A stretch of 64,000 nt of DNA from Teretinema zuelzerae (GTDB taxonomy: Bacteria; Spirochaetota; Spirochaetia; Treponematales; Treponemataceae): positions 1,922,001-1,986,000 of the forward strand of contig NZ_JAINWA010000003.1 in assembly GCF_021021555.1 (NCBI RefSeq), read 5' to 3'. Below are positions 10,595 through 19,558 of this stretch, in pieces. The position numbers and the translations under genes are program-made. Within the stretch, counting starts at the first letter, position 1. Each line of letters begins with the position of its first letter. The notes below the pieces were generated by a model. The model saw only the letters and a program-made list of their open reading frames with translations. It ran no database searches and was not told where the DNA came from.

Positions 10595-12811
10595 ATGTCC
10601 AACTTTAAATCGAATCCGGATGATTCCAACGGACCTAAAACCGTTGGAATCATGCTGGATTCAGTTGATACATTTTTTAATTCCCGCGCTATCTCGGACT
10701 TAATCGATGCATGCGAAGAGCGTTCCATCCGCCCTGTTTTCTTTTTCGGCGGATCTCTGGAAAGAAGCTCTTCTGCCGGCAGATATTCCTATGCATACAG
10801 CCTGCCGAATTCGAAATTCATCGACGCTTTAATCGTTTTTCCTCATTCAATTGCCCCGTACGACCCGATTGAAGCAGTCCGCACGCTGATAGAGCGAATC
10901 CCCGACCTTCCGGTGTACTCTTTTTTCGGCCATCTCCCTGCGATATGGAGCATCGGTCCAGAGAACTCGCGCGCAATTCAAGAAATAATTCACCACCTTC
11001 ACGCCGATCATGCATATACGAAATTCGCGCTGCTCACCGGTCCAGACGCGCCGGGGACGACGTCCAGAGAGCGGCAGCTTCAAATTGAAAAGGAGCTCCA
11101 CCGCATCGGAATAACGATTCCCGATGAATGGATCTTTCCCGGCACATACTCGCAACACGACGGAAAAACGACCGCGGCGCAGATATTGAAACTCGACGGC
11201 GATACGCCGGAGGTTCTTATCTGCATGAACGACCAAATGGCGATCGGCGCGGTGACGGAATTTCAAAACCACGGAATCTCCGTACCCGGCGACATCGCTG
11301 TAGTCGGATTCGACGACGTAGAAGAAAACAGCTCGCTGCCGACAAGCTTCACCAGCGTAAATTTTCCCATATGGGAAATGGTCTCCATCATGATGGACCG
11401 AGTCGTCTCCGATCTCAACGGCATCACCTCTTATTTCCCCGAGCAGATTTTTCGTCCCGCCCAGTTCATGCACCGCGAATCCTGCGGATGTTCGTCATGG
11501 TTCGATCATGCCGATCGCCAACAGGGAAATTTCACTCCGCTGGAACTTACCCGCACGCCTCAGAGAAATTTAAAGAAACTTTCGGGGTTGCGCCGGTCGT
11601 TGGAAAGCATCATAGATCAATGCCTGCAATCGGGAGACTACGGCGCCTTTACATCCTTTATGCAGGGAATAATCCAAACCCTGTCCCGTTCGGGTCACTT
11701 ATCGGACTCGTTCATCGACCTGTTCTCTACCCAATGGACAAGCACCCTGCTGAAACACAACGATAAGGAATCTCAGATTCTTTTGAATTCGCTGTTTCTC
11801 GACGCGTTCCGATTGCTAATACAAACAAAACAGAAATCCTTCAGAAAAATACGCGAGCAAGATCTTGGCAGCCTCGCCTTTTATCGGGAAGGTAACGAGC
11901 TTTTAAGCAAGAAAATCACCATTAAGGACGCTGTGCGCGGAATCGGCGCGAATCTCCCGATACTGGGCATAGAAGAATGCCACCTCGTGTTCCTGAATCA
12001 GCACGACCCGAAAAAAGGAGACCTCCGGTTTTCCTTTTATGCGGGGCAATATACGGAAGTATACGAGGAGCCGTATACCCGCTTCCCGGTCGAGGAATTG
12101 CTTCCCAAACAACAGATGAAAAGCGGGAATCCCCTCGCCGCCCTTCCTCTCGCCTTCAATAATTACGTTTACGGCTATCTCGTCGTCTCGATAACCGACA
12201 AACATTTTTCCCAATTCGACATGATACAGGACCTTGTTTCCCGGATTATCGACGCCGCCATGGGAAACGAGATCCTTTCCTGCCATATAGAGACGCTTAC
12301 ACAAAACAATTCCACGTTGTCCCGGCTTTCGATGATCGACGAGTTCACCGGCTTATACAACCGCAGAGCCCTGGACATCACCGGAAAATCGATGTTCGAC
12401 CAGGCGGTTAAGTCGAGGCAAAGCTGCTGCTTCATCTTTCTCGATATGGACGGTCTAAAAAAAATCAACGATTCATGGGGACACAAAGAAGGCGATCAGG
12501 CGATTCTCTCCCTGGCGGAAATATTGAAGGCCAGTTTTCGTGAACGCGACTTGGTTGCGCGCTACGGAGGCGACGAGTTCGTCGTTCTCATGATAAATGT
12601 GCAGGAAAACGTCGTGATTCGAACCCTGGAGCGAATTTCGGCAAAACTCGACTCTTTCAACCAAACCGGCGCATATCCGTGGACCCTTTCGGCGAGCTGG
12701 GGTTTTTCCATGCGCACTAAAGAAGACGTCGATAAAACTTTTGAATCGCTGATCGAGGAAAGCGACGCCATTTTGTATCAGCACAAGAAAAAGAAAAGAT
12801 CTTCGCAGTAA
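10595..12811 (+). CDS. Diguanylate cyclase with LacI-type ligand-binding domain
   Basis: This 738-aa cytosolic protein joins a LacI/PurR-like periplasmic-binding fold (about 15-300; motifs VGIMLD, ICMNDQMAIGAV and VVGFDDVEE) to a central linker and a C-terminal GGDEF domain. The catalytic GGDEF is at 658-662 and an RERD inhibitory-site motif lies five residues upstream. No helix-turn-helix precedes the sugar-binding fold, so it senses a small molecule to control c-di-GMP rather than DNA. No signal peptide or membrane helix is seen, so the ligand would be intracellular. Confidence 0.88.
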   Translation: MSNFKSNPDDSNGPKTVGIMLDSVDTFFNSRAISDLIDACEERSIRPVFFFGGSLERSSSAGRYSYAYSLPNSKFIDALIVFPHSIAPYDPIEAVRTLIERIPDLPVYSFFGHLPAIWSIGPENSRAIQEIIHHLHADHAYTKFALLTGPDAPGTTSRERQLQIEKELHRIGITIPDEWIFPGTYSQHDGKTTAAQILKLDGDTPEVLICMNDQMAIGAVTEFQNHGISVPGDIAVVGFDDVEENSSLPTSFTSVNFPIWEMVSIMMDRVVSDLNGITSYFPEQIFRPAQFMHRESCGCSSWFDHADRQQGNFTPLELTRTPQRNLKKLSGLRRSLESIIDQCLQSGDYGAFTSFMQGIIQTLSRSGHLSDSFIDLFSTQWTSTLLKHNDKESQILLNSLFLDAFRLLIQTKQKSFRKIREQDLGSLAFYREGNELLSKKITIKDAVRGIGANLPILGIEECHLVFLNQHDPKKGDLRFSFYAGQYTEVYEEPYTRFPVEELLPKQQMKSGNPLAALPLAFNNYVYGYLVVSITDKHFSQFDMIQDLVSRIIDAAMGNEILSCHIETLTQNNSTLSRLSMIDEFTGLYNRRALDITGKSMFDQAVKSRQSCCFIFLDMDGLKKINDSWGHKEGDQAILSLAEILKASFRERDLVARYGGDEFVVLMINVQENVVIRTLERISAKLDSFNQTGAYPWTLSASWGFSMRTKEDVDKTFESLIEESDAILYQHKKKKRSSQ

Positions 12812-15479: not shown

Positions 15480-16118
15480 GTGCCGCAAAAAACTATATTA
15501 CCAAGAATCACGGCAGGGACGGTTTTATCGCTGTCCCTTCTTTTTACCTCGTGTTCCAATGTGCTCAACGTAGTAATTTCGCCTTTCGCTCCGGATTTTC
15601 TCCCGGAAGCGCACGCTGAAAACGGTAGCGTGCTCATACCTCTTTCTTTGTCGTCAGAATATGAAACAACCGATAAAGACGGAAGCTGGGAAACCGACTA
15701 CGCGTGGTACGTGTACCGCTCCGAAATTTCCCCCTACCAGGGAATGGCTCTCGTCGGCAGGCTGTACCGGCCGGGAGCGCTCGGCGTTTATACAGACAGA
15801 CGACACCGCCTTGCCAGCGACGAAGACGGCGATCAATATATAGCAACAACATCCAGCGATAAGGATTTCACGCTGTCCCGCCTAAATGCTTCTGGATCGG
15901 AAACAGTGCAAAATCAAAACTCAAACGCATCAAGTTACTTCATCGATGAGAATGCCCCGCGAACGACCCTATACTACCGGGTTTCCAGGGTACGCCTGCG
16001 AAAGGAAGTTACAGAACGAGAATTCACCATTTCTGATTCAAAAACAACCGTAACAGACATCGAATATTCCCTGGAACATACAGAAACGAGCGGCTGGACC
16101 GCGGCGGAAAATCAATGA
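15480..16118 (+). CDS. Hypothetical lipoprotein
   Basis: This 212-aa protein from a GTG start has an N-terminal hydrophobic stretch ending in the lipobox LFTSC (about residue 25), so it is likely an envelope lipoprotein. The mature part is rich in Ser/Thr/Asp, with no recognisable domain. The GTG lies 3 bases after the metK stop with no clear Shine-Dalgarno sequence, suggesting coupling to metK. Its stop overlaps the next ATG (ATGA). Given the barrel-like product of that gene, the two may work together at the outer membrane, but this is inference from position only. Confidence 0.7.
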   Translation: MPQKTILPRITAGTVLSLSLLFTSCSNVLNVVISPFAPDFLPEAHAENGSVLIPLSLSSEYETTDKDGSWETDYAWYVYRSEISPYQGMALVGRLYRPGALGVYTDRRHRLASDEDGDQYIATTSSDKDFTLSRLNASGSETVQNQNSNASSYFIDENAPRTTLYYRVSRVRLRKEVTEREFTISDSKTTVTDIEYSLEHTETSGWTAAENQ

Positions 16119-17299
16119 AAAAAGCCTTTTTTTGCGCTTCGTCGAAGCTTGCCTTCGCCCTCGCCATATCCCTTATGAGCGGCACAGTATCAGCCGAAAC
16201 CATCTCCTTCGACCCCGGCGATCTTGGCAACAGGCTCGGAAGATCGATCTCCCTCACCGAGGCCTTCCTTCCCCGCTACCATGGCCTTGCGGATATGCTC
16301 GGCGGCAGATCGAAAGATATGTTTCAAACCGCGAGTCTTCAGGCGATCTGGTACACGAACTACTCGATTTCTACGGATTTCGGAAGCGAGACCGGATCTC
16401 TGGGACGTGTATACGGAGATGTATTCGGCGCGAGAGTCGGGAAAAACCTCTCCCTTCTGTTCGGCGCGGGAGGATTCCGGTACGGCGTATTTCTTACCGA
16501 CATATCGCTCCCCGCTCCAGCCGGAGATCCCGCAGGGAATCCCTTCGTAACAGACTTCACCGGCACTCAGTTTTTCCAGGACATTTACGCGATCGGCCTA
16601 TTGATTCGTAAAGAAGTTCTTCTTACCGCCTTCGTAAATCAAAACAGGCAGTATGCTCCGGACTCGGGAGTCGTCGACATATATAAACCGGAAGTTTCCG
16701 AATTTATTTTCGGCGGTGAATTAGCACTCGGGGGAGCCCTCTCGGTAGAGTCCTTCGCCACAGAAACCGGCGCACATCTCAGAACAGAAGGAAGAATACA
16801 TCCGACGCGCATCGTCTACCGCGCGATGGGGATGCCGGGGAAGGGATCTTTCGACCTTTCGACAGGGATTCGATGGATCAACGCCGGCGACGGAAAATTC
16901 ACCCTTTCACGTTACACGATACCGACCGATTTCTCCTTCAAGCCCGGAAAACGGGTTGTTCTCTTTTCAGGGTTTTCTGTTGCCGGCAAAGAAATCAGGG
17001 AAGAAACAGACAGCCTTTTTCGGTACGGCTATGGAAAAGCCGGTTGGAACCTCTCGGACGAAATTCAGATCTCAGCCGGCGCTTCGTACATTGCCGACCC
17101 GCGCATGGCCTATTTTTACCAGGGAAACACGGAAGCTATCGGATACTGCGCGGAACTGCAGTTCTGTTATGAAGATCTTGTGCGTTTCTCCATCGGCGCG
17201 AGAAAAAATTGGCACCAGGACCTTGCCGACCTTATCGAGACGGTCGATCGCCCGGTTTTCTACGCTTCGCTAAACCTTCTCGTACCCACGCTTTTCTGA
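16115..17299 (+). CDS. Probable outer-membrane beta-barrel protein
   Basis: This 394-aa protein has a signal peptide (MKKAFF..., cleavage expected after GTVSA, residue 27). It shows alternating polar/hydrophobic strands and a C-terminal phenylalanine after SLNLLVPTLF, the usual hallmark of an outer-membrane barrel. I do not recognise the family; it resembles uncharacterised treponemal surface proteins only in general character. Translation is coupled to the upstream lipoprotein by an ATGA overlap. It converges directly on the chemoreceptor gene with no intergenic space. Confidence 0.7.
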   Translation: MKKAFFCASSKLAFALAISLMSGTVSAETISFDPGDLGNRLGRSISLTEAFLPRYHGLADMLGGRSKDMFQTASLQAIWYTNYSISTDFGSETGSLGRVYGDVFGARVGKNLSLLFGAGGFRYGVFLTDISLPAPAGDPAGNPFVTDFTGTQFFQDIYAIGLLIRKEVLLTAFVNQNRQYAPDSGVVDIYKPEVSEFIFGGELALGGALSVESFATETGAHLRTEGRIHPTRIVYRAMGMPGKGSFDLSTGIRWINAGDGKFTLSRYTIPTDFSFKPGKRVVLFSGFSVAGKEIREETDSLFRYGYGKAGWNLSDEIQISAGASYIADPRMAYFYQGNTEAIGYCAELQFCYEDLVRFSIGARKNWHQDLADLIETVDRPVFYASLNLLVPTLF

Positions 17300-19558
17300 T
17301 CACTCATCGCGAAGCTGAAAGCGCGATACAAGCCCCCTCAAGGAAACCGCCTGTGACGAAAGTTCCTCGCTCGTGGCGGCGCTCTCCTGCGAAACCGACG
17401 CGTTCGCCATAACCACCCGGGACACCTGCTGAAGGTTTTCAGTTATATCCCTTATACCGTGCGTTTGATCCGCAGAGGAATGAGCAACCTCTTCCACAAG
17501 GCCGGCGATCTCTCGCGACTTGTCCGCAATGCGCCGAAGCACCTCCGCCGTGCGGTTCGCGATATCGGATCCGGTTTTTACCGTCGCCAAAGAGGTTTCG
17601 ATATAGCCTGCGCTTTCACGGGCGGCTTCGGAGCATCGTCCCGCCAAATTCCTGACCTCGTCTGCGACGACAGCAAAGCCCTTTCCGTATTTTCCGGCCC
17701 GCGCGGCCTCGACTGCAGCGTTGAGAGCCAGAATATTCGTCTGGAAGGCGATATCGTCGATCGTCTTCAATATGCCGGTGATGTTTTCAGACGACGCTTG
17801 TATTTCTTTCATGGCATTCAGCATTTCGCTCATTCTGAAATTTCCCTCCTGAGCGAATTCCTGAGCCTCGCTTGTCATGACCCGCGCGCCGGCCGCGTTC
17901 TTCTCCGTCAGATTGTTTTTCTCCGAAAGCAGTTTCACCTGGGCCGCCAGATTATCCACTGCCGTCGTCTGCTCCTGCGTACCCGCCGCGAGATCCGCGC
18001 TTCCCAGGGATACCTGATCGGCGCCCGCGGTAAATTCATCAGCCGCAAGACGGATTTCCAAAAGCGTTCTGTCGAATGTTTCCAGAATTTGATTTATCGA
18101 GCCGCTGATCTTCGCGAAATCGCCTTCGAATTCACCGTCCAGCGAAACCTGTAAATTCAAAGCGGCGGCCTCGTCCAATACCGAAACGATTTCGTTGGTA
18201 TACCGGGACATTTTTTCGATTATTCCTGTTTTCTCGCCGATGTTTCGCGACTCGCGCTCTATTTCCTTCCGATTGTAATCGATGCAGTTGCCGGGAAAAT
18301 TGCACCCGTTGAATATCGCGGTAACCATGTCGTCGCAGGTGTGGTATCCGCAGGCCGAACAATCGATCGACCGGTCAGCTTCCGCTTCTTTATGAAGTTC
18401 GAGCCAGATTTTCTCTTTCTCTGCGGCGTTCGGCTTCCCCAACTGCACAGTCTTTGGCGTATATTTTCTGAGAAAATCGTCCAGAACCAGGGTTTTATCG
18501 AAATATCGATACAACTCCTTTTGCTTCGTTTTCCCGAACGAAGCGCGTTCCTTCATTTTCGCGTTTCTGATTTCATTCAACGACTTATCGACATCGTCGA
18601 TCTGCACGTTCTTGCAGGTGCCGGTTCCGATGTTGCATCCGTGAGAACAATTGAGAATATCCACTAGCAGAGGCACCGGTTTATTTTTCTGCACGCGGTT
18701 TTCATATTCCTGCAGATACGGATACGCGTGGCGGCTTCCTTCTACCTGGCGAACCCACACGCCGGGAACGAGAGCTTCGACGTTTTCCCGCAATCCGCCG
18801 GGACGGCTGAATAATGCGCCGAGCCAGCATCCGATATCATCGTAAGAACCATCCTGCTGCCGGGATAGATCGATTTTCTTGTTTTCGATGTATTCATAGA
18901 GTTTTTTATACGTAACATTGTACGAAACAAGTCCTTCGGTGTTCGGATCGGTAAATTCATCCGTTTTTCCTACGCACGGAGATAAAAATGCGATTTTATC
19001 GCTGTTTTTCGCGTATTTCCGCAGATACACCGCGGTGCAGAGCGTCGGACTATGTATAGGGGCCAGCGTATCGATCAGTTTCGGCTGATATTTCTCGATA
19101 TAATTAACAATGGCAGGACAGGGCTGCGCTATCACGGATTGCAAATTCCGCCGCTGTATCGCTTGTAAGTAGGCCCAGGTCGTAATATCCGCGCCGAAAG
19201 ATACATCGTACACAGAACGAACGCCGAGAGACTTCAAATAACCGATCATTTTTCGGTGTGTATTGAAATTTACCCGAGCCGCAGGGGCCGCGACGACAGT
19301 GATTGAAGAGCCTCTTTTCAGATCATTGAAGAAATCTTCAGTATCATCCGTATAATCCCGAGCTTTATGCGAACAGGCATCCAAACAAGCGCCGCAACGT
19401 ATGCATTTTTCCTGATCTACGCGAACCCGGGTAACGCCGTCCTTGACATAAGAAATATTCGCTCCCAGCACAGGACAATTACGTATGCATTTATTGCATC
19501 CAACGCACTTTTCTTCGATAGTAAACACAACCTCGGAATTTGAAATCTTATTAGACAT
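17300..19558 (-). CDS. Soluble [FeFe]-hydrogenase-like methyl-accepting chemotaxis protein (putative H2 sensor)
   Basis: This is a 752-aa cytosolic fusion. A two-cluster ferredoxin (Cys18, 21, 24, 28 and 52, 55, 58, 62) leads into an [FeFe]-hydrogenase-like H-cluster domain. All four H-cluster cysteines appear present: AQPCPA (147), SPCVGK (195) and NCSHGC (304, 308). The proton-relay cysteine of the usual TSCCP motif is replaced by Pro, as expected for a sensor rather than a fast enzyme. A CxxCGxxxC Fe-S motif follows (CSACGYHTC), then a chemotaxis signalling domain with the hairpin [20 protein letters not shown]. No membrane helix is seen. It probably reports H2 or redox state to CheA. Confidence 0.9.

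Follow-up and report, generated by a model that had tools for sequence, protein, structure and literature searches.

Can a spirochaete sense hydrogen with a chemoreceptor that carries an [FeFe]-hydrogenase domain, and through which machinery would such a receptor act? The question is raised by a gene of Teretinema zuelzerae in the window, by which we mean the whole analyzed stretch of 64,000 nucleotides (contig NZ_JAINWA010000003.1, positions 1,922,001 to 1,986,000):

17300..19558, minus strand: whole gene of 752 aa for an H-domain chemoreceptor of the HydDB C2 type, as judged by its Pfam domains and by orthologues of 55-61% identity

The original prediction gave no strand for this open reading frame, which is a single intact minus-strand gene. 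Its frame is open upstream as far as 19681, and the chosen start (MSNKIS...) at 19558 agrees with the orthologues; the promoter scan for the gene found nothing. In Pfam searches the protein matched MCPsignal (2.2e-47, residues 561-715), Fe_hyd_lg_C (2.7e-30, residues 86-311), and two 4Fe-4S ferredoxin motifs (about residues 15-66), and PF04060 FeS was matched at residues 398-425 with 7e-4, below its cut-off in the window copy, and with up to 3e-7 in orthologues. These matches reproduce the make-up predicted earlier, in which a ferredoxin, an H-domain, a further Fe-S motif, and a chemotaxis signalling domain are joined in one chain. The cytosolic location predicted with it is also borne out: a Kyte-Doolittle scan found no membrane helix of sufficient hydrophobic length in the protein, and a cytosolic place is reasonable because the highest 19-aa hydrophobicity is only 1.07. 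Six further species of the genus have full-length orthologues, and because of this conservation at 55-61% identity the gene is far beyond chance. A chance match of the domains was ruled out by these orthologues together with the fold match to solved [FeFe]-hydrogenases described below. In the four genus species whose contigs extend far enough, the gene lies between metK and ilvC or beside ilvC. In the window, a convergent 394-aa gene (16115-17299) with an exported-protein-like start and no Pfam match abuts the stop codon of the chemoreceptor gene, and a large protein with a periplasmic-binding/LacI-like front and a GGDEF end is encoded at 10595-12811, beside aspS, a position kept in the genus.

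The window protein is probably a cytosolic H2/redox chemoreceptor that works through the Che system of the che operon in this genome. The sensor half, predicted to be able to hold an H-cluster, has the following features.

19361..19513, minus strand: N-terminal dicluster ferredoxin, residues 16-66, with eight cysteines (Fer4 models; all eight invariant in 60 relatives)
18626..19303, minus strand: H-domain (Fe_hyd_lg_C), residues 86-311 (E 2.7e-30; fold match to CbA5H, Z 39.6)
19118..19120, minus strand: Cys147, first H-cluster ligand, motif AQPCP, in which Pro146 replaces the proton-relay Cys299 of CpI (alignments)
18974..18976, minus strand: Cys195, second H-cluster ligand, motif SPCVGK, in which Ser193 replaces Met353 and Lys198 (= Lys358) is kept (alignments)
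18647..18649, minus strand: Cys304, third H-cluster ligand, motif ILNCSHGC, in which Leu302 replaces Met497 (alignments)
18635..18637, minus strand: Cys308, fourth H-cluster ligand, the expected bridge to the 2Fe subcluster (alignments)
18284..18367, minus strand: C-terminal Fe-S motif Cx2Cx4Cx16C, residues 398-425, with Cys 400, 403, 408, and 425 (PF04060; PMC8163306)

The four cysteines proposed earlier as ligands (147, 195, 304, and 308) were numbered correctly and were invariant in 60 of 60 aligned relatives. The residues that we take to hold the 2Fe unit (the equivalents of Lys358, Pro231, Pro324, Pro354, and Glu361 in CpI numbering) were likewise invariant in all 60, including sequences from hydG-lacking genomes. 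With the four cysteines, the CN-binding lysine, and the pocket prolines kept, the H-domain is predicted to be able to hold an H-cluster. In the C-terminal motif, Cys 400 and 403 were invariant in the 60 aligned relatives and Cys 408 and 425 in all except one gapped row, and its spacing is the exact motif of group C and D sensory hydrogenases (PMC8163306).

A structure prediction had been proposed for the H-cluster pocket, and the model of residues 1-485 (mean pLDDT 92.4) matches solved [FeFe]-hydrogenases: CbA5H with an rmsd of 2.8 over 350 residues at the Z score given above, and CpI with Z about 35. None of the solved chains that it matched was recognised by name as a sensory-class [FeFe]-hydrogenase. 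After the H-domain, this model has a long helix at residues 426-466. The full-length AlphaFold model (pLDDT 51.7) was used for secondary structure only.

The active-site motifs were read by alignment with other H-domains of the same genome (group A6, B1, PAS-type, and group-D-like). The first motif, AQPCP, differs from the TSCCP of catalytic enzymes, which sets the protein outside groups A and B, and Pfam gave no PAS match at E values up to 1, a point in which it departs from group C (M2f). The serine at the M353 position (Ser193, in 60 of 60 relatives) without a PAS domain agrees with the description of group D (M2e). The proton-relay position is Pro in every one of the 60 relatives, and the Met497 position is Leu in 59 of them. 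Since Pro at 299 occurs in only about 10% of the whole HydDB 'sensory' set (PMC10055695), these changes mark a subfamily, and the lost proton-relay cysteine with M353->Ser and M497->Leu is, as read from the alignments, a family signature. The original prediction had noted the loss of the relay cysteine, and this part stands; the loss alone is not a sign of a non-catalytic protein, because TmHydS, with Ala at this position, retains slow turnover (PMC10055695). GC3 was slightly lower in the sensor half, and this dip was discarded as a sign of transfer of that half, the same trend being common to all orthologues.

The change of the C299, M353, and M497 positions across the whole family would also suit a redox or O2 chemoreceptor, in which the H-domain would carry [4Fe-4S] clusters only and the cell would follow intracellular redox or oxygen (energy taxis) and not H2; the three further Fe-S sites would be at home in such a sensor. 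However, the residues expected around the 2Fe unit are invariant throughout the 60 relatives, and TamHydS, with both M353->Ser and M497->Leu, assembles an active H-cluster (PMC8163306). The maturases bear on the same point. The original prediction had named the absence of hydEFG as an observation that would speak against it; in a profile search all three, HydG, HydF, and HydE, were found together on contig C3 at 1682748-1687802, each above its curated cut-off. The other side of this evidence comes from the relatives. HydG was over its cut-off in 24 of the 37 genomes that have relatives, and the other 13 were also without HydF over its cut-off:

Genomes in which neither HydG nor HydF exceeded its cut-off: L039, L043, L047, L063, L067, L074, L076, L077, L085, L090, L097, L099, L104

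Every one of the 13 also carries other H-domain proteins. Most of these genomes are draft MAGs; the record titles of Lachnospiraceae bacterium 28-4 (L077) and Desulfocucumis palustris NAW-5 (L043) bear no such mark. Such genomes add to the case for a redox or O2 sensor, and some C2 relatives may work without the 2Fe subcluster. However, because these genomes are mostly draft MAGs and have other H-domains, they do not show that C2 proteins function without H-clusters. We therefore regard a redox or O2 receptor as rather unlikely for the window protein and keep to an H2/redox chemoreceptor as the preferred reading.

The second half of the question concerns the output, the features of which are as follows.

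18074..18196, minus strand: HAMP_2-like segment, residues 455-495 (PF18947 matches 5 of 7 orthologues, at best with 2.8e-5, and the window copy weakly, with 0.055)
17318..18067, minus strand: 36-heptad-type signalling hairpin, residues 498-747 (MCPsignal 2.2e-47; gapless to the genome's own che-operon receptor and to Tsr)
17693..17752, minus strand: hairpin tip, residues 603-622 (20 aa), the region of contact with CheA/CheW, with the same sequence as in E. coli Tsr

The hairpin aligned with that of E. coli Tsr (1qu7) over 224 to 224 residues with no gap. The closest chemoreceptor in the genome to the window protein is the che-operon receptor (L124 6505-8859), which has strong HAMP_2 domains (5.5e-57) and to which the output half is 38% identical over 297 aa, again gapless. 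These alignments show the output half as a full 36H receptor module whose CheA/CheW tip is intact. It shares with Tsr and the che-operon receptor the gapless 36H hairpin, but both of these are transmembrane proteins with extracytoplasmic ligand domains. The genome has three CheA genes and five CheR genes, and the CheA gene at 633 kb of contig C1 stands in an operon-like row with genes for a receptor, CheW, CheR, CheB, CheD, and CheY.

The presence of three CheA genes leaves room for a different output, in which the hairpin would feed another Che-like pathway (gene expression or development) and not swimming. Short C2 hairpins are widespread in Lachnospiraceae genomes and the related sensors L013, L014, L042, and L045 end in kinases or GGDEF/EAL domains, which would agree with such a role. 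We consider it quite improbable for the window protein, the nearest receptor of which lies in the operon with CheA, CheW, CheR, CheB, CheD, and CheY and the CheA/CheW tip of which is identical to that of Tsr. A catalytic hydrogenase with a fused regulatory tail would account for the retention of all the H-cluster ligands but is hardly credible, as the proton-relay cysteine has given way to Pro in all 60 relatives, catalytic A6 and B1 enzymes are already present in the genome, and a conserved full-length signalling module would be left without explanation. The preferred reading remains a receptor that signals to the Che system of the che operon.

The H-domain of the window protein is joined, in the Pfam annotation, to a methyl-accepting chemotaxis domain, and the protein is, by its domain architecture set against the class description, of the HydDB [FeFe] group C2 kind, a group named 'Chemotactic (putative)' in 2016 (PMC5037454). 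In the HydDB description, too, an H-domain and Fe-S domains are joined to a chemoreceptor domain and H2 sensing via MCPs is predicted (PMC5037454). A 2022 survey dropped its C2 hits after validation (PMC9431212). The original prediction had treated a direct link between a hydrogenase and chemotaxis as unusual; this did not hold, since the C2 class was already defined and dozens of such fusions were found, and the claimed novelty of the architecture is ruled out on the same grounds. The new part looks smaller, namely a Bacillota-type C2 sensor half with a full-length HAMP_2 and 36-heptad output half. Most of the C2-type proteins found have no HAMP and a short hairpin, with an arm of about 81-94 aa (near 24H) and about 87-100 aa past the conserved hairpin motif, whereas the core of the window clade reaches 132-133 aa past that motif and is preceded by the HAMP_2-like segment.

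The longer output half was compared with both kinds of hairpin. In blastp searches, it scored up to 169-185 bits with the genome's own receptors versus at most 82 bits with short C2 hairpins, and in a careful MCP tree the window clade and che-operon receptors were joined at a support of 96/90. The HAMP_2 segment, the arm length, and the MCP tree point to a swap of the MCP module. The swap is not proven, because AU tests in which the window clade was grouped with short C2 hairpins (p 0.06, 0.07, and 0.11 with three row sets) do not formally reject a common origin. Long 36H-like arms are found as well in a C2 protein of Calditrichales (L034 4992-7172), whose genome also encodes a short-hairpin copy (L035), a possible further output swap.

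Relatives of the sensor half are numerous. In a scan of species genomes, 563 candidate stretches were found to encode them; the best 80 of these 563 are mostly from Bacillota, with others from Calditrichota, Gastranaerophilales, Acidobacteriota, and further groups. Nearly all of the relatives examined have Cx2Cx4Cx16C, and most end in a chemoreceptor hairpin. In L013, L014, L042, L045, L062, L068, and L073, the same sensor half is fused to histidine kinases or to GGDEF/EAL domains. Across these fusions, the sensor half is apparently swapped among output modules.

Among C2 proteins, the nearest to the window protein in the sensor half come from Bacillota and Calditrichota, with 50-57% identity. 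The H-domain chemoreceptors L015-L020 of Treponematales (group codes f1, f4, and f5 of the relatives search) come from a related host group and share the overall architecture and the predicted role in H2 gradients; however, their sensor halves are only 32-39% identical to that of the window protein, they form a clade separate from the window clade in the H-domain tree, and they have a different MCP module. H2 sensors of termite-gut treponemes were reportedly proposed by Ballor 2012 and Warnecke 2007, as cited in PMC4070709 and PMC4704652. Identity and a quick tree suggest a transfer of the sensor half from Bacillota, but uniting the window clade with the Treponematales clade in the sensor tree costs 0.6 log units (p-AU 0.40), and no direction is claimed. 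Within the genus, for which 12 partly incomplete genomes were counted, seven have the window-type H-domain chemoreceptor. Four (G003, G004, G006, and G009) have another type of H-domain sensor, of 582-749 aa and 37-39% identity, the G003 copy of which (L019) groups with the Treponematales set in the H-domain tree, and G010 has neither type. The two non-orthologous types were not seen together in any of the 12; G008 has two fragmentary extra matches. The occurrence of one or the other type in 11 of the 12 genomes fits a conserved shared role. As a tentative proposal, which we hold with some doubt, a Bacillota-type sensor half may have been grafted onto a native spirochaete receptor in parallel to the separate lineage of the order, so that bacteria would have put together H2-taxis receptors at least twice and from different parts, with true H2 sensing and taxis in the window protein.

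Other sensory hydrogenases give a measure of how such a sensor might behave. TamHydS (group D/M2e) resembles the window protein in its dicluster ferredoxin, H-domain, and Cx2Cx4Cx16C motif, in having no PAS domain, and in M353->Ser, M497->Leu, and the lost proton-relay cysteine (PMC8163306). It differs in being a separate protein with no fused chemoreceptor domain, and the present genome has its own TamHydS-like gene at L122 5834-7336. TmHydS (group C) shares the ferredoxin, the H-domain, the C-terminal Fe-S motif, and the loss of the relay cysteine (PMC10055695), but it has a PAS output, M353->Gly, and M497->Ser. In the surroundings of the TamHydS-like gene (L122 5415-7336, contig C1 about 0.29 Mb), the group-D-like H-domain protein (SSSC, ISPC) follows straight after a small histidine-kinase-like HATPase, an arrangement that resembles that described for TamHydS. 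The genome's own group-D-like protein (L005) stands far off on a long branch in the H-domain tree. At L121 5813-10507 (contig C1 about 1.49 Mb), a group B1 hydrogenase, a 2Fe-2S thioredoxin-like protein, a SpoIIE-type phosphatase, and an H-domain protein with an Fe-S motif and a weak PAS match are encoded in a row, the arrangement of a phosphatase-linked sensory hydrogenase.

H2 binding and H2 taxis by the window protein are predictions from its sequence, and one possible mechanism is that H2 would be split slowly at the H-cluster and that the altered proton path and second sphere would let the reduced state persist. TamHydS, in which the Ser and Leu changes also occur, has a stabilised Hred (PMC8163306). 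The electrons would pass to the Fe-S cluster that adjoins the long helix at residues 426-466, and a change in this helix might shift the packing of the HAMP segment and hairpin and with it the activity of CheA. Altered CheA activity would bias swimming along gradients of H2 or of low redox potential. The direction of the response is a guess. The genome has two enzyme-type [FeFe]-hydrogenases, A6 and B1, and CdhC/AcsB was not found in it; the cell therefore probably makes H2. For an H2 producer, attraction is just as likely as negative taxis or a search for partners, and the cell may swim away from accumulating H2 or towards partners that consume it. The archaeon Methanococcus maripaludis is known to respond to H2 in its swimming, according to a passage of PMC4266047 that cites this, and it has been suggested that sensory hydrogenases orient termite-gut bacteria in H2 gradients (Warnecke 2007, as relayed in a passage of PMC4704652). 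In the literature searched, we found neither H2 binding nor taxis data on any C2 protein, nor a demonstrated bacterial H2 receptor for taxis.

Hydrogen is a central currency of anaerobic communities, and the C2 class has been 'putative' since 2016. The window protein is ordinary as a member of its class and moderately interesting as a test case. Its standard 36H module and Tsr-identical tip could make it easier to test in E. coli or in CheA/CheW arrays than the short-hairpin C2 proteins, and thus it could make H-cluster-driven chemotaxis directly testable.
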